Shown here: positions 4,426 to 11,990 of the stretch, piece by piece
Numbering within the stretch: position 1 is the first letter of the stretch
Layout of the letters: each line of letters opens with the position of its first letter
Assembly: GCA_022823825.1 (NCBI GenBank)
Contig: JAJEHG010000045.1
Coordinates: 1 to 64,000 of the forward strand
From: Nitrosopumilaceae archaeon
GTDB taxonomy: Archaea > Thermoproteota > Nitrososphaeria > Nitrososphaerales > Nitrosopumilaceae
Length of the DNA: 64,000 bases
Direction of reading: 5' to 3'
Translations under genes and position numbers: made by a program
Notes under the pieces: model-generated
Database searches by the model: none
Seen by the model: only the letters and a program-made list of their open reading frames with translations
What the model was told of the DNA's origin: nothing

Positions 4426-4839
4426 TCAGATGTACCTGAGTATGGTGGGCTTGTCGGGCCCTGACGCCATGTCGGATACTAGCGCAAAGTTGTGCAGCGG
4501 GTACGCCGCCTTGTACTGCTTCATGTAGCTCCATGCCACGTCGTGCGTCTTGAACTCGGTGCGTATCCCGTCGACGACTACCTGCTTGCCGTACACGTCA
4601 AAGGCCACTACATGGTACGCCTTTGGCCGGTTGTGGGGCTTTGCCTTTAGGAGCCAGGCCATGGCGAACACGAAGACGGCGCCAAGCACCACGTACTCGC
4701 CTGCCACCCTGAAAAAGTCGACGACCACGCCGGGTATGGTCTGCCCGAACAGTACTGCCATAAAGTTTGAGAACGAGATCACGGCCAGTGCGGTAGCAAG
4801 GTACGTCCTCCACTCAAAGATCCAGCCGACTTTTTTCAT
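4426..4839 (-). CDS. membrane-associated hypothetical protein
   Basis: Two hydrophobic segments, then a soluble domain; start at internal ATG (MKKVGWIFEWRTYL). Confidence 0.6.
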   Translation of the reverse strand: MKKVGWIFEWRTYLATALAVISFSNFMAVLFGQTIPGVVVDFFRVAGEYVVLGAVFVFAMAWLLKAKPHNRPKAYHVVAFDVYGKQVVVDGIRTEFKTHDVAWSYMKQYKAAYPLHNFALVSDMASGPDKPTILRYI

Positions 4840-5022
4840 CAGATGGGCTTTGCACCTTTTTGATTTAACTATTTCCCGCCTTTCTGCCGATCTGCCCGCC
4901 GTATCCCTTGACATCTGGCTCGGAAATGGGTGGTTCGGTGGGGGCCTCCGATCTGCAGGGAACATGAACTGGATCTGGCGCATGCCGGGCGCTTCCGGTC
5001 AGCCGTGTATGGCCTGCCGCCT

Positions 5023-6183
5023 CTAGTCGGGATCCTCGTACCTGGCCCCGCTGCCGTTTTCTCCGCCCTTGGCTGCTCCGGCCGCCGCCGCAGCGCCGTC
5101 CATGGGGACCATCTTCTCGTCCAGTGAGCCGATGACCGCCTTGTAGCCCTCGGCGTATTCAAGCTCGGAGGGGACAAGCGTGGCCGGGTGTATGAACCCC
5201 TGGCTTCTCATCTCGAGCGCCTTTGTCGTGGCGCGCTCCCTGACAAGGTCCCAGTCCGGCGTGGAGAATCCGTCAAACGGCCCCGTCAGCCTCCCCTCGT
5301 GCATGCTGAACACCAGGGCCTCTACAATCGGGATGCAAAAGTTGATCGTGGCCGCCGAGTTGAGCCTTACCGGCATCAGCGGCATGTTGTGGCTGCCGCG
5401 CGTGTTCCCCGCCACGTAGTGCGGGTTGTTGAATACGCTGCCGACCTCTTCCGTGGCGGGAAACATCTTCTGCGTCCTCACCATGCAGACCGGATCGTCC
5501 TTGCCGACGTACGTGCCCGCTATGTTGTGCAGCCGGTCGGTGGATGCCGAGAGTATCGGCTCGCCGTCCTTTGTGTACACGGAGTCCACCACGTACCTGC
5601 CGGGATACATCAGGGCCGCCTCCAGGATCGGCTTGTCCTGCCACATCTCAAGCTCGGCAATCCTGCCCTTTTCCACGTCCATCACGTTTATCACGACGCC
5701 CCTGGCCAGGCTCTTGTTGACTATGAGTCCGGTGTTGCTTAGCGCGTCGACAAACATCCTGTATATGGGATAGTTAAACGCACCCGGCTCGGTCTTGTCG
5801 GCCGCAAATACCGTAAACGCCTCGTTGGGCCTCTCCTCAAACTCCATCTCGGCCACGCCGGGGCCCATGCCCTTTACGTTTCCAGAAAACGAGTCCTTTA
5901 GCAGGTCCTGGCCCGCGCCGTAGAGCCCCTCGGCCCTTGCAACCTCGGTGCCTGCCATGAACGCGTCCCACGCAAGCTTGTGTATCCTCTCGCTGTCGGT
6001 CCCGTGAGTGTGGGACATTACAATGTGGACGTCGTCGCCGCAGTATCCGATGTAGTGGTCAAGGAGCATCTCCTTTGAGGACTGCACCACGCCCCTTACT
6101 GCCGCAATCAGCCCGTCGCTGGGCTTTGTATGACCGCCGACGCCGCCCACATCGGCCTTTATGACCGATACCGTAACCTTCAC
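5023..6183 (-). CDS. fbp: fructose-1,6-bisphosphate aldolase/phosphatase (archaeal type V FBPase)
   Basis: MKVTVSVIKADVGGVGGHTKPSDGL... and DDVHIVMSHTHGT motifs are characteristic. Confidence 0.95.
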   Translation of the reverse strand: MKVTVSVIKADVGGVGGHTKPSDGLIAAVRGVVQSSKEMLLDHYIGYCGDDVHIVMSHTHGTDSERIHKLAWDAFMAGTEVARAEGLYGAGQDLLKDSFSGNVKGMGPGVAEMEFEERPNEAFTVFAADKTEPGAFNYPIYRMFVDALSNTGLIVNKSLARGVVINVMDVEKGRIAELEMWQDKPILEAALMYPGRYVVDSVYTKDGEPILSASTDRLHNIAGTYVGKDDPVCMVRTQKMFPATEEVGSVFNNPHYVAGNTRGSHNMPLMPVRLNSAATINFCIPIVEALVFSMHEGRLTGPFDGFSTPDWDLVRERATTKALEMRSQGFIHPATLVPSELEYAEGYKAVIGSLDEKMVPMDGAAAAAGAAKGGENGSGARYEDPD

Positions 6184-6576
6184 GAGGCTGCTGTACGTGC
6201 CTTTGATTTATGTGCTTTTAGTGGCGGGAACGGCCCGCGCCCCCGCCCGCGCCCTTGCCGGCTCCCTTCCTCCACCCATGCGCCGTCCTGCAGCGGGCGC
6301 CACCGCCACCGGCTCCCTCCGCCACACGACGTCCCGGCCCGCATTCGTGCGATCGTTATGCGCGGGACGCATCGGCGTCCACGTCCATCCTCCCCCCCCC
6401 TGCCAATCCCAACACCATGATCATTTTCTATGATTTCCAAGATATGCGGCGTTACGGTGTGATTCTTTGGCATATTTTGACCTCACTGCCATAACGTGTA
6501 ACTACACTCCACACGAAATGAATTTTTTTTATGCCGCATCTTCCAAATTCCGCCCTGAAAATCGCCGTTTTTTTCA

Positions 6577-6620
6577 GGTACTGTTGCAAATTCGTGACCC
6601 ATTGGGCGGCTAGGCACGGC
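6577..6620 (+). repeat. left terminal inverted repeat
   Basis: GGTACTGTTGCAAATTCGTGACCCATTGGGCGGCTAGGCACGGC; matches the reverse complement of 10604-10647 with one mismatch. Confidence 0.95.
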
Positions 6621-6681
6621 GTGATCTTCTCTCAAATGGCAGGCACACCCGTTGTTAAATACCGACATCAGGAACGAGGTT

Positions 6682-6930
6682 ATGGACAGGCCGCCGCGCA
6701 GACCGAGACGGCGTAGCAGTGCCAAGACGCGCGACCGCTTGGTCGCGCTTGCGACGCTGATGCTGACAGCCAACATGTACTTTTCCATGGCCGCGGTCTA
6801 TCCGGAATACTCGTTCGATCCGGAGTATGACGACCACGGCGGGCTGGCCATGGTCGTGGCTACGATGATGCTGGCGGGGTGGATAATACTCTGCATCTCA
6901 AGGGCTCAGCGCGGCGAGAGCATCATGTAG
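6682..6930 (+). CDS. small membrane protein inside the mobile element
   Basis: MDRPPRRPRRR... then two hydrophobic segments; convergent with the transposase gene. Confidence 0.45.
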   Translation: MDRPPRRPRRRSSAKTRDRLVALATLMLTANMYFSMAAVYPEYSFDPEYDDHGGLAMVVATMMLAGWIILCISRAQRGESIM

Positions 6931-6934
6931 CGGG

Positions 6935-7999
6935 TCAGACCCGCTGGTCGGTGGCAATCAGGTAGAGGCTGCTGTTCTGAATGATTGTTTTCCACTTGTT
7001 GGCCCCCTCGGTGTGTATGCCTGCCGCCTCTGCCGGGGTCTTGGCGATTGCGTCATGCTCGCGGCAGTGGTTGTAGTGAACCTTCATGCCCTTGAACACC
7101 GGGGTTCCCATGTGGCCAAGTCCGCGAAAGGTCTTCTCGCGGTCGCGGATCGTACCGTTCAGGCGCTCCATCTTGTTGTTCGACGGGTGGTAGTTGCCCC
7201 CGCACGGCTTGCCGCTCGGGCCCTTGCGCTTGCTACGTATGCCCGCATCACACTTGTGGTACGTGCCCCTGCCGAACACCTTGCGGGCCGCCTTCTGGTA
7301 CGCGTGTAGTTTGTCGGTGATGAACACGGTGGGGGCCTTGCCCGTGTGCTCCTTGCTTGCACGCAGGAGATCGTCCGCGTTGTGCCTGAACTTGTTGTCT
7401 GCCAAGTCGGACGCTATCCAGTATCGAGTGTCGTCGTCCATTGACGCGAACAGGTAATGCTGTTTGCCTGCGACCTTGACCCACACCTCGTCGGCCCTGT
7501 ACCACTTGCCGACATCGGGCGTGATGCTGTCGGTAAACAGGGACGCGACCTTTGAGTAGCGTTCAACCCATCTGTATATCGTACCGTTTGAAACACTGAT
7601 GCCCCGCACCTTGAGCAGGTCGGATATGGCCCTAGTGGACATGCCCGCGTGGAACATGTGCACCGCCTCGCTTACGATAGCGGAATCAAACTGCCTGTAC
7701 CGGAACCCGAAGTTTGCAGAAAAAACCTTCTTGCAACGGTAGCACTTGTACAACTGTACGTCCCCGGACTTGTTGCGGCGCACGCCCTTCTTGCCGATAC
7801 GCTCCGACCTACAGTATTTGCAGAACCTGATCGCATCGTGGGACTCGATCTGCGTGCTCATGCGGCACGCCTCCCAAAAATTATAAGATGGATGGTTGAA
7901 ACCGGATTCAAGGACTCGGACAACGCCAGTCTCGTCATTGGGAGTGTGGCTCCCTCTGACTTTGTTTTCTTCATCGTCTTTCTTGCCGGTTTCATACAA
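6935..7999 (-). CDS. IS6/IS240-type DDE transposase with N-terminal zinc ribbon
   Basis: FCKYCRSERIGKKG...YKCYRCKKVF zinc ribbon; WYRADEVWVKVAGKQHYLFASMDDDTRYW, FITDKLHAYQKA and NNKMERLNGTIRDREKTFRG DDE signatures. Start is TTG 7999 or ATG 7861. Confidence 0.9.
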   Translation of the reverse strand: MYETGKKDDEENKVRGSHTPNDETGVVRVLESGFNHPSYNFWEACRMSTQIESHDAIRFCKYCRSERIGKKGVRRNKSGDVQLYKCYRCKKVFSANFGFRYRQFDSAIVSEAVHMFHAGMSTRAISDLLKVRGISVSNGTIYRWVERYSKVASLFTDSITPDVGKWYRADEVWVKVAGKQHYLFASMDDDTRYWIASDLADNKFRHNADDLLRASKEHTGKAPTVFITDKLHAYQKAARKVFGRGTYHKCDAGIRSKRKGPSGKPCGGNYHPSNNKMERLNGTIRDREKTFRGLGHMGTPVFKGMKVHYNHCREHDAIAKTPAEAAGIHTEGANKWKTIIQNSSLYLIATDQRV

Positions 8000-8095
8000 T
8001 AGGTTATCTGGTAGGTCATATAAAGGTTAGGTTATATGTTAGGTTATGCATCTATACGATAGGTTATTATTATGACAAGTCACGCAATAGGTTAT
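8000..8095. promoter_or_regulatory. iteron cluster, TAGGTTAT x5 plus one degenerate copy
   Basis: TAGGTTAT at 8000-8007, 8028-8035, 8040-8047, 8060-8067 and 8088-8095; TAGGTCAT at 8012-8019; lies between divergent transposase and AbrB-like ORFs. Confidence 0.75.
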
Positions 8096-8264
8096 GGTTA
8101 AGACAAACTTGGTGCTGGCAAACAAAAGCGATTCCTTGAGAACGACAGTGCCGTCCCACATTGTCAAGCAGTTCAAGTTGAAGCAGGGCGATCAGTTGGA
8201 CTGGGAACTAATCGCAGAGGCGGACACTCTGAAAATCATAATAACCCCCGCACGAGAGGTATAA
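8094..8264 (+). CDS. AbrB/SpoVT (MazE-like) small DNA-binding protein
   Basis: Not in the ORF track (<60 aa). Translation MVKTNLVLANKSDSLRTTVPSHIVKQFKLKQGDQLDWELIAEADTLKIIITPAREV matches the swapped-hairpin AbrB pattern (SLRTTVPxxIVxxFxLxxGDxLxWxL). Confidence 0.7.
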   Translation: MVKTNLVLANKSDSLRTTVPSHIVKQFKLKQGDQLDWELIAEADTLKIIITPAREV

Positions 8265-8315
8265 GCAAGTTGGTGCAGGCGGGGGCGACATGTTGCAATG
8301 AGCGTCACATATGTA

Positions 8316-8346
8316 CGAGAACTAGCCGAGAACTAGCCGAGAACTC
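8316..8346. repeat. short tandem direct repeat (CGAGAACTAGC, about 2.7 copies)
   Basis: CGAGAACTAGC CGAGAACTAGC CGAGAACTC read directly. Confidence 0.8.
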
Positions 8347-8493
8347 CCCTCGACACGGGGGCTTTAATTTTTCGCAATCTAAATGCATCTGGCGTAGATG
8401 TTTGTTTGGTGTTGAAAACAAGACACCAATTCCAAACACGGTTGAATCAGTTTGGATTTTCCACAGAAGTAAACAAAAGGGGGTCAATTCCCC

Positions 8494-9480
8494 ATGATGT
8501 CGAAAAATACATCATTGAATAAAGCAAATGCCGCCAAAGAAGATGAATTTTACACGGAGCTCTCCGACATTGAGAACGAACTTAAGCATTACAAGGGACA
8601 CTTCAAAGGCAAGACAGTCCTTTGCAACTGTGACGATCCAAGAATCAGCAACTTTTTTCATTATTTTTCACACAACTTTAAAAAACTGAAACTGAAAAAA
8701 CTCATTGCAACCTGCTACAAAAGCCAGCAGGTTAACCTGTTTAGCCGATACGATTCTGAATATGCCATCTATCAGGAGTACGACGGGGACGAGGATAGAA
8801 TACCAGACCCCCGCAAGATCAAAGTGGGTAATTTGGAAAATGATGGGGATTTCCGAAGCGAGGAGTGCATAGAGATCCTAAAGAAGGCCGACATAGTGGT
8901 GACCAACCCCCCGTTCTCGCTGTTCAGGGAATACGTCTTACAGTTGATCAAATACAAGAAACGCTTCCTCATCATAGGAAACCAAAACGCTGCGACCTAC
9001 AAGGAGATATTTCCGTTGATCAAAGACAATAAGATCTGGTTTGGATACCATGTGGGGGACATGGCCTTCCGGGTTCCCAGCCACTTTGAACCGAGGACTA
9101 CCAGATACTGGGAGGACGAGAATGGCCAAAAATGGAGGAGTCTTGGCACGATATGCTGGTTTACCAACTTGGACGTCAAAAAACGCCATGAACGTCTCAT
9201 ACTGCACAAGGCATACCAGCCGCGGGAATACCCAACTTATGACGGTTACAATGCCATAGACGTGGGCAGGGTGGCAGACATACCGGCCAACTATAACGGA
9301 ATGATGGGGGTGCCAATCACGTTCCTGAGCAAGTACAACCCAGAGCAGTTTGAAATCGTCGGCCTTGACAGGTACATTGAAGACAGTCCCGCACGCGGCA
9401 GAAGGTTCAAACTCAAGGGAAGGGAGACATATGCCCGCATCATAATCAAGCACAAGAAGGTGGTGGCAGCACACAAATGA
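8494..9480 (+). CDS. EcoRI-type adenine-specific DNA methyltransferase
   Basis: NPPF catalytic motif in ADIVVTNPPFSLFREY; EDEFYTELSDIENEL...GKTVLCNCDDPRISNFFHYF typical of the EcoRI methylase family. Confidence 0.88.
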   Translation: MMSKNTSLNKANAAKEDEFYTELSDIENELKHYKGHFKGKTVLCNCDDPRISNFFHYFSHNFKKLKLKKLIATCYKSQQVNLFSRYDSEYAIYQEYDGDEDRIPDPRKIKVGNLENDGDFRSEECIEILKKADIVVTNPPFSLFREYVLQLIKYKKRFLIIGNQNAATYKEIFPLIKDNKIWFGYHVGDMAFRVPSHFEPRTTRYWEDENGQKWRSLGTICWFTNLDVKKRHERLILHKAYQPREYPTYDGYNAIDVGRVADIPANYNGMMGVPITFLSKYNPEQFEIVGLDRYIEDSPARGRRFKLKGRETYARIIIKHKKVVAAHK

Positions 9481-10562
9481 AAATAGAGCTCAAGAAAATC
9501 ACGGTAAGGAAGCTGTCAGAGGGATATGAGGATAACGAGGAAGAGGGCGTTGTGGCTTATGGGGGCAGGCTGGACGTGCGCCCTCCCTACCAGCGGGAGT
9601 TCATCTACAAGGAGGCCCAACGGAACGCAGTGATTGACACGATTAACAAATGCTTTCCCCTCAACGTCATGTATTGGGCCGTACGCAACGACGGAGGATT
9701 TGAGATTATAGACGGACAACAAAGGACCATCTCCATATGCCAGTATGTGATGGGTGACTTCTCGCACAATGCAAGGTACTTTCACAGCCTTCAGGACGAT
9801 GAACAAAACAAAATCCTCAACTATGAACTGATGGTCTACTGGTGCAGTGGGACGGACAGCGAGAAGCTGAAGTGGTTTAAGACGATCAATATAGCTGGGG
9901 AGGAACTCTCTGCGCAGGAACTCAGGAACGCCGTGTACCACGGGTCATGGGTCTCCGATGCCAAGCGTTACTTCAGCAGGCGTGGGTGCGCGGCCTATGC
10001 AATCGCCAGTGACTACGTAAGCGGCTCTCCCATCCGTCAAAAATATCTTGAAACCGCCATAAAATGGATCTCAGGAGACGACATAGAAGGATACATGTCC
10101 AAACACCATCACGACCAAAACGCCAATGAATTGTGGATTTATTTTCAGACCGTGATCAATTGGATCAAGGCTACGTTCAAGGTCAAGAGAAAAAAAGAGA
10201 TGGAAAACGTCGACTGGGGTTCCCTGTACAACGAATACAAGGATGCACAACTGAACACGGACAAGATCGAGGAAGAGACAAAGAAACTGATAGATGACGA
10301 TGATGTCACCAAGAAGGCTGGTATCTATCCCTACATCTTGACGCGGGACGAAAAACACCTTTCCATCCGCGCGTTCACAGACAGCATGAAGCGAAAAGTC
10401 TACGAGAAGCAGGATGGAAAATGCGCAGTGTGTGGAGAACGGTTCGACATATCAGACATGGAAGCGGATCACATCACGCCTTGGCACGATGGCGGCAAGA
10501 CGACGGAGGAAAACTGCCAGTTGCTTTGTAAGGAAGACAACCGTAGAAAGGCGGGGAAATAG
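9477..10562 (+). CDS. DUF262 (GmrS/ParB-like) plus C-terminal HNH nuclease, putative restriction endonuclease
   Basis: N-terminal PYQREFIYKEAQRNAVIDTI...FEIIDGQQRTISICQ (DUF262); C-terminal CAVCGERFDISDMEADHITPWHDGGKTTEENCQLLCKEDNRRK (HNH); ATGA overlap with the methylase stop. Confidence 0.88.
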   Translation: MKIELKKITVRKLSEGYEDNEEEGVVAYGGRLDVRPPYQREFIYKEAQRNAVIDTINKCFPLNVMYWAVRNDGGFEIIDGQQRTISICQYVMGDFSHNARYFHSLQDDEQNKILNYELMVYWCSGTDSEKLKWFKTINIAGEELSAQELRNAVYHGSWVSDAKRYFSRRGCAAYAIASDYVSGSPIRQKYLETAIKWISGDDIEGYMSKHHHDQNANELWIYFQTVINWIKATFKVKRKKEMENVDWGSLYNEYKDAQLNTDKIEEETKKLIDDDDVTKKAGIYPYILTRDEKHLSIRAFTDSMKRKVYEKQDGKCAVCGERFDISDMEADHITPWHDGGKTTEENCQLLCKEDNRRKAGK

Positions 10563-10603
10563 GAAATCTGTCCGAACTGGTTTCTCATGTCTCAACCCGA
10601 CCA

Positions 10604-10647
10604 GCCGTGCCTAGCCACCCAATGGGTCACGAATTTGCAACAGTACC
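10604..10647 (-). repeat. right terminal inverted repeat
   Basis: Reverse complement is GGTACTGTTGCAAATTCGTGACCCATTGGGTGGCTAGGCACGGC. Confidence 0.95.
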
Positions 10648-10661
10648 TTTTTTCATAACAG

Positions 10662-10670
10662 TAATAAATA
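10662..10670 (+). promoter_or_regulatory. putative TATA box of the EF-1alpha gene
   Basis: taataaata centred about 26 bp upstream of ATG 10692, consistent with a leaderless archaeal transcript. Confidence 0.45.
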
Positions 10671-10691
10671 CCCCCCAAGAGGACTCCCAAT

Positions 10692-11990
10692 ATGGCAGAC
10701 AAGCCCCACCTGAACCTGATAGTGACAGGGCACATCGACAACGGCAAGTCCACTACAATGGGACATTTTCTGATGGACCTGGGCGTGGTCGACGAGAGGA
10801 CCATAGCGGCCCATGCGACCGAGTCTGAAAAGACCGGCAAGGGTGACACCTTCAAGTATGCCTGGGTCATGGACAACATAAAGGACGAGAGGGAGCGCGG
10901 CATTACAATTGATCTTGCATTTCAAAAATTCGAGTCACCAAAGTACTTTTTCACCCTGATTGACGCCCCGGGACACCGGGACTTCATCAAGAACATGATC
11001 ACGGGCGCATCGGAGGCCGACGCGGCCATCCTGGTGCTCTCGGCCAAAGAGGGCGAGACTGACACCGCGGTCGCGGCAGGCGGACAGGCCAGGGAGCACG
11101 CGTTCCTGCTAAAGACGCTCGGCGTAAACCAGCTCATCGTTGCAATCAACAAGATGGACGACAGCAACTATTCGGAGGACGCATACAAGGCGGCCAAGGA
11201 AAAGGGCGAGAAACTCGTCCGTTCTGTAGGCTACAAGCTGGACTCGGTCCCGTTCATACCCGTGTCGGGATGGAAGGGCGACAACCTGGTGAAAAAGTCC
11301 GAGAACATGTCATGGTATACGGGCAAGACCCTGCTGGAGACGTTTGACGACTTTTCCGTGCCTGAAAAGCCGGTCGGAAAGCCGCTGCGCGTGCCCATCC
11401 AGGACGTCTATACCATTACCGGGGTCGGCACGGTACCCGTCGGAAGGGTCGAGACCGGCACCATGAAGACCAATGACAAGATCATCGTAATGCCTGCCGG
11501 AGCCACGGGCGAGATAAAGTCCATAGAGACGCACCACACCGAGATGCCGTCTGCCGAGGCAGGAGACAACATCGGCTTCAACCTCAGGGGCATAGAGAAG
11601 AAGGACATCAAGCGCGGCGATGTCCTCGGCACGCCCGACGCGCCCCCGATGGTCGCCAAAGAGTTCAAGGCTCAGATTATCGTCATACACCACCCGACCG
11701 CGATTGCCCCCGGGTATACCCCGGTCATGCACGCGCACACGTCCCAGGTCGCCGCAACCGTGACGGAGTTCCTTCAAAAGATAAACCCCGCAACGGGCGC
11801 CGTGGAGGAGGAGAATCCAAAGTTCCTCAAGGTCGGCGACTCTGCGATTGTAAAGGTTAGGCCCGTCAGACCCACGTGCATTGAGACGTTCCAGGACTTT
11901 CCCGAGATGGGAAGGTTCGCGCTCAGGGACATGGGCGCCACCATTGCGGCGGGGATTGTAAAAGAGATTACAGAGGAATACAAGCCCTAG
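10692..11990 (+). CDS. tuf: translation elongation factor 1 alpha
   Basis: GHIDNGKST, DAPGHRDFIKNMITG and NKMD GTPase motifs. Confidence 0.97.
   Translation: MADKPHLNLIVTGHIDNGKSTTMGHFLMDLGVVDERTIAAHATESEKTGKGDTFKYAWVMDNIKDERERGITIDLAFQKFESPKYFFTLIDAPGHRDFIKNMITGASEADAAILVLSAKEGETDTAVAAGGQAREHAFLLKTLGVNQLIVAINKMDDSNYSEDAYKAAKEKGEKLVRSVGYKLDSVPFIPVSGWKGDNLVKKSENMSWYTGKTLLETFDDFSVPEKPVGKPLRVPIQDVYTITGVGTVPVGRVETGTMKTNDKIIVMPAGATGEIKSIETHHTEMPSAEAGDNIGFNLRGIEKKDIKRGDVLGTPDAPPMVAKEFKAQIIVIHHPTAIAPGYTPVMHAHTSQVAATVTEFLQKINPATGAVEEENPKFLKVGDSAIVKVRPVRPTCIETFQDFPEMGRFALRDMGATIAAGIVKEITEEYKP

Follow-up and report, generated by a model that had tools for sequence, protein, structure and literature searches.

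Organization of the element

Positions 6577–10647 of the 64 000-nucleotide window of contig JAJEHG010000045.1 from a Nitrosopumilaceae archaeon, an ammonia oxidizer (assembly GCA_022823825.1; the window is the whole stretch of DNA analysed) hold a transposon of 4071 bp between its outer ends, which encodes an IS6-like transposase together with a restriction–modification (R-M) gene pair. The left terminal inverted repeat (6577–6620, forward strand, beginning GGTACTGTTGCAAATTCGTGACCC) and the right one (10604–10647, reverse strand) are each 44 bp long and agree at 43 of 44 positions, a single base differing. An 8 bp target duplication, TTTTTTCA, abuts the outer side of the element at both ends (6569–6576 and 10648–10655). 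A first-pass annotation of this DNA had reported the inverted and direct repeats and had named an IS6-like transposase, an AbrB-like open reading frame (ORF), an EcoRI_methylase and a DUF262-HNH protein; the repeats were located again at the same positions and the genes were recovered in profile searches.

A search of the whole 1.70 Mb draft genome found no solo copies of the 44 bp ends, the sole other match being the end of a related element on contig C13, which is 82% identical. Since the genome lacks solo ends, the flanking pair is not a coincidence of two insertions, a finding that would, as stated in advance, have contradicted the annotation. Genome G130, the closest relative among the compared genomes, has an EF-1alpha gene 95% identical to the one just to the right of the element (start 10692). 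In G130 the target is uninterrupted, with one TTTTTTCA and approximately 90% identity across the junction over 1740 bp. Such an empty site in a related strain had been predicted, and it indicates that 6577–10647 arrived, and behaves, as one unit. The difference between the genomes would be explained either by insertion after the split from G130 or by clean loss in G130. The element occupies the promoter region of EF-1alpha, an essential gene, and lies 36 bp ahead of its start codon (window 10648–10692).

An arrangement in which two independent insertions, or a composite transposon, surround an R-M island that was moved by other means is extremely improbable. Internal relic ends in some relatives speak for it in so far as they show that fused elements exist in the group, but here the duplication is found on the outer sides only, there is a single pair of matching inverted ends and one transposase, and both the genome without solo ends and the exactly one TTTTTTCA at the G130 empty site contradict it; coincidental or composite flanking was rejected on these last two grounds. 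In place of the two full insertion sequence (IS) copies that surround the cargo of a composite transposon, the window element has one transposase and 44 bp ends only. It has instead the form of a transporter IS (tIS), with passenger genes between one short pair of IS ends that, as the empty site indicates, moved as a unit. The earlier proposal of a single cargo-bearing IS6-type mobile unit is backed by the ends, the duplication and the empty site, and also by a second, related element that this genome contains and that has an 8 bp duplication of its own. It is thus highly probable from these sequence comparisons that 6577–10647 is a single transposon belonging to a cargo-bearing, IS6-like archaeal group that repeatedly acquires and swaps R-M systems. 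In such an element the transposase would join both outer ends to a new target, moving everything between them, and a single copy with a target duplication fits either a resolved cointegrate or another route.

Transposase and its putative regulator

The transposase gene (6935–7861, reverse strand) encodes 308 residues from an ATG codon, with the ORF continuing to 7999. The protein matches PF13610 (DDE_Tnp_IS240, the IS6/IS240-type DDE domain; 2e-9) with 38.2 bits against a cut-off of 27, while its best match in NCBIfam is the IS6 family (NF033587; 3.1e-32) with 111.9 bits, under the cut-off of 125. The transposase is therefore termed IS6-like, its formal membership of IS6 being borderline. The ends carry the IS6 motif GG..CTGTT..CAAA (consensus from PMC7986276) in the form GGTACTGTTGCAAA, accompanied by the expected 8 bp duplication in the two copies of TTTTTTCA. 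An N-terminal zinc ribbon (C14-C17/C40-C43) precedes the catalytic residues Asp124, Asp183 and Glu232, all of which are retained. In an alignment of ten relatives the zinc-ribbon cysteines, Asp124 and Glu232 are invariant and Asp183 is kept except in the copy on contig C11 of the same genome, in which this second catalytic aspartate is changed to asparagine (ITDK to ITNK). The C11 element (4738–6572 of that contig) is a degraded relative with one recognizable end only. A transposase relative from another clade carries a SWIM finger (Pfam). No solved structure related by sequence to the transposase or the methylase was found. No transposase relative was confirmed in viral contigs, and a virus as the vehicle was dropped from consideration on this result.

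The loss of the catalytic aspartate in the C11 copy, the broken methylase of the C13 element described below and the presence of one copy of the window element in the genome could indicate a dead remnant, formerly mobile and now fixed. This is unlikely for the window element, in which the transposase, methylase and nuclease frames are open with intact motifs, the ends are nearly perfect and the nearest relative lacks the insertion.

Divergent from the transposase lies a gene for a 56-residue protein of the AbrB/MazE fold (8094–8264, forward strand; PF04014, 1.3e-5, just over the cut-off), and the region between the two genes (7999–8095, forward strand) contains five copies of WTAGGTTAT that might form an operator. 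These five are the only copies in the window, against an expectation of 0.28, and none of 100 shuffles reached five. Many related elements have a small divergent gene adjoining the transposase, encoding an AbrB-like protein, a KYLYY/Arm-like protein or a zinc ribbon, and repeats occur near the transposase promoter in several. Because such genes recur across elements with unrelated cargo, the AbrB-like ORF probably belongs to the transposon, as its putative regulator, rather than to the R-M system. The simplest reading is that the product of the small divergent gene is a transposase repressor; in the window element the AbrB-like protein would repress the divergent transposase promoter through the WTAGGTTAT repeats. 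The KYLYY-motif protein (70–74 residues, with weak Arm-DNA-binding/AP2 resemblance) lies beside the transposase in L078, L082, L083, L084, L091, L192 and L220, frequently alongside R-M cargo, and is a possible controller.

The R-M cargo

The methylase gene (8494–9480, forward strand) encodes a DNA adenine methylase of the EcoRI-methylase family with an NPPF motif (PF13651, 3.8e-132; PADLOC MTase_II, 3e-129). The nuclease gene (9477–10562, forward strand), whose start overlaps the end of the methylase gene by 4 bp, encodes a DUF262/GmrSD_N domain with a DGQQR motif and a C-terminal HNH domain (PF03235, 1.2e-17; PF01844, 1e-13), and matches PADLOC REase_II over its full length (3.8e-131). The NPPF motif of the methylase beside the CAVC, ADHI and CQLLC motifs of the HNH domain characterizes the two as a probable Type II R-M gene pair. 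It is not an EcoRI system proper, the nuclease being a GmrSD_N–HNH protein; no homology to R.EcoRI was found, and its matches in the PDB up to E = 1, apart from those at chance level, are with the HNH part.

Type IV nucleases and related enzymes that attack modified DNA combine DUF262/GmrSD_N with HNH. On this basis the nuclease could be a Type IV-like enzyme directed at modified phage DNA, with the adjacent methylase being independent of it, and a lone GmrSD-HNH protein is indeed carried by another element of the group (L177). This assignment is nevertheless decidedly unlikely given that the two genes overlap, that the pair recurs both on plasmids of unrelated bacteria and in genome G151, and that PADLOC classes both genes as Type II. 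Full-length relatives of the nuclease on bacterial plasmids (54–67% identity over the full length in the best ten records) are in several cases annotated beside an EcoRI-family methylase. As a Type II pair, the methylase would protect the DNA and the nuclease would cut unmethylated DNA, which would both defend the cell and make loss of the element costly. R-M addiction is accordingly a possible means by which the element maintains itself.

The G+C content of the R-M part is 48%, that of the transposase part 56% and that of the window 59%, and the low value of the R-M part relative to the window fits a later, foreign origin of this cargo. Among 251 Nitrosopumilaceae genomes, another EcoRI-type methylase and another such nuclease were found only in G151, where they occur together, the nuclease being 72% identical. 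An end of the group type, GGTTCTGTAAATTTATCGAG, lies 43 bp beyond the nuclease stop codon in G151 and is of a type seen in another transposase clade, which suggests that the same R-M cassette rode two branches of the transposon group. The G151 contig (C48) stops inside the methylase gene and contains the searched end sequence once only; the remainder of the element was not found in G151, a partial transposase on contig C4 not being at a contig end.

The remaining passenger is an ORF of 82 residues with two hydrophobic stretches (6682–6930, forward strand; 92 residues from an upstream TTG codon), an open frame for which profile searches gave no family match.

Related archaeal elements

The C13 element of the same genome (L009, 1523–4445) is 2923 bp long; its inverted ends are perfect and it is flanked by the duplication GTATGCGC. 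Its transposase is 77% identical to that of the window element at the protein level, and its cargo comprises a Type II methylase (PADLOC, 5e-34) and a 175-residue nuclease (PADLOC REase_II models, 7e-9). A run of nine C near position 2774 disrupts the reading frame of the methylase gene, through either phase variation or an assembly error. The G130 contig that matches the C13 target has 98 bp ahead of the alignment, and its sequence differs there. Two further elements, in genome G147 (the Thaumarchaeota metagenome-assembled genome RHO2_bin_25), carry a methylase–HNH fusion and a methylase with an MvaI/BcnI-type nuclease, respectively. DNA similarity among these four closest elements, two from each genome, is almost confined to the transposase and the ends, and the four hold four different R-M systems. 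This difference in cargo between nearest elements makes them probable carriers of R-M systems between genomes.

The window transposase served to gather a wider set of relatives within Nitrosopumilaceae and among named archaeal genomes (including Nitrosocosmicus, Bathyarchaeota, Methanoperedens and Thermoplasmata). From 168 distinct transposase regions, ends were resolved for 66 elements, 53 by the main criterion, by which two of 123 decoy positions also gave ends, and 13 by a relaxed one. Transposases of approximately 34–38% identity often had no ends or another type of end and were omitted where unclear. The resolved elements range from 1855 to 6770 bp, with a median of 3.4 kb. None of the 66 is bare: all hold extra DNA, and as the end search started at 700 bp, bare elements of approximately 1.2 kb would have shown. 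The description of the window element as an IS6 derivative with cargo therefore stands in so far as it is a cargo-bearing unit, whereas its portrayal as an oddity among bare IS6 elements does not, since all of the resolved archaeal relatives carry additional DNA.

R-M-type genes are present in 17 of the 66 elements, one of which (L177) has the nuclease only. They include EcoRI-type, N6_N4, D12 and N6/Eco57I (Type IIG-like) methylases, HaeIII and MvaI/BcnI nucleases and specificity subunits. Other cargo encodes HicAB, Fic, NurA, proteasome-like proteins, ParB-DUF488, an AAA ATPase and AbiV, and many cargo genes in the group match nothing.

Cargo could be gained once two copies land adjacently and the outermost ends are used. 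Two different elements lie side by side in L082 (G120 contig 5, 8336–16226) with TGTTTTAG present three times, internal relic ends occur in nine of the 66 elements compared with one for the reversed control pattern, and in L074 two relic ends stand back to back between two cargo blocks. The side-by-side elements and the internal relic ends agree with cargo gain in which a copy inserts next to another and the outermost ends then move together. Duplications resembling TGTTTTAG and CTAAAACA recur in other elements, which suggests a target preference.

The R-M cassette might instead be neutral, incidental cargo, any short neighbour being picked up and R-M genes merely being common in mobile DNA. 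The HicAB, Fic, NurA, proteasome-like, ParB-DUF488 and many unknown genes in other elements are what this would predict, but R-M-type genes are found in 17 of 66 elements and in all four of the nearest, compared with the N6_N4 methylases of Nitrosopumilaceae, of which there are typically one or two per genome, one being a conserved gene of approximately 265 residues. Against this background, finding R-M genes in a quarter of 3 kb cargos greatly exceeds what genes drawn at random would give, although it may not exceed what a draw from mobile genes would give. R-M carriage is also concentrated in the clade of the window transposase (11 of 17 elements, compared with six of 49 elsewhere; Fisher test, 7e-5, which ignores kinship). 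Neutral carriage is on balance somewhat unlikely.

Several points weigh against the interpretation of these elements as repeated carriers of R-M systems. Shuffling of labels on the transposase tree shows that the clustering of R-M carriage is weak, 35 of 500 shuffles being as low, so that the Fisher value overstates independence; this also favours neutral carriage. The sample was built by similarity to the window transposase, and the data consist entirely of genome sequences, of which many are draft assemblies. Ends are available for 53 + 13 elements out of 148 full-length transposase regions, and some of the others may be bare or differently built.

A broader proposal, which we hold tentatively and at slightly less than even confidence, is that these elements form a distinct archaeal transposon group with a zinc-ribbon (often SWIM) IS6-like transposase, a small divergent DNA-binding gene and exchangeable cargo that is obligatory or selected. 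Its R-M branch would be a main vehicle of complete R-M systems into thaumarchaeal genomes, with cargo gained through side-by-side fusion.

Relation to known systems

IS6 elements (IS6/IS26, including archaeal and long, zinc-finger clades; PMC7986276, PMC6807381) share with the group the DDE_Tnp_IS240 domain, ends of the form GG-n-n-CTGTTGCAAA and the 8 bp duplication. The group differs in its size of 1.9–6.8 kb with cargo, compared with approximately 0.8 kb for IS6, in the added N-terminal zinc ribbon (and a SWIM finger in another clade) and in the sub-threshold NCBIfam score. A review of IS6 gives one passenger-bearing member, ISDsp3 (PMC7986276, 2021), and Harmer and Hall considered that archaeal IS6 elements possibly form their own family (PMC6807381). 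The tIS elements likewise have one IS-type transposase, single short ends and internal passenger genes (PMC7986276), but in the archaeal group cargo is the rule, whole R-M systems are part of it, and close relatives carry different cargo. The plasmid pairs of EcoRI-family methylase and DUF262-HNH nuclease consist of the same two genes, whereas the window copy is archaeal and lies within a transposon.

Tn7-like transposons are larger and have a multi-protein transposition module. They also carry varied defence systems (PMC8649781), while the elements of the window group have one transposase and a length of 2–7 kb. In Escherichia coli, IS activity moves the PaeR7I R-M system and restriction selects the joint product (PMC3031569); there the R-M genes were joined to host IS copies in a forced experiment, whereas here they are built into the element. 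According to a survey of mobile elements in Thaumarchaeota, IS-like transposons there generally have one or two genes (PMC6563490). No prior description of the cargo-bearing group was found in the openly accessible literature, and an unpublished, paywalled or ISfinder account may exist.

The turnover of R-M systems in genomes is rapid, yet the mobile elements usually searched seldom contain them, and Oliveira et al. (2014) left the source of new R-M systems as an open question, the acquired regions being typically small (PMC4176335). A transposon of 2–7 kb with precise ends is a small vehicle of a kind that fits such regions, and it can be missed because annotation registers the transposase only. 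With defined ends, an empty site and four sister elements that each bring a different R-M payload, the vehicle idea is open to direct testing.

Additional observations

A HicB–HicA toxin–antitoxin pair is carried by L128 (8996–9548). Proteasome-subunit-like (Ntn hydrolase) cargo is present in at least three elements (L082, 12975–13787; L108, 7295–8128; L129, 6321–7247), with four proteins by tally. Several transposases of the group lie close together in L112 (G176 contig 1, approximately 1.780–1.788 Mb) and on G116 contig 22, which may represent nested or tandem hot spots.

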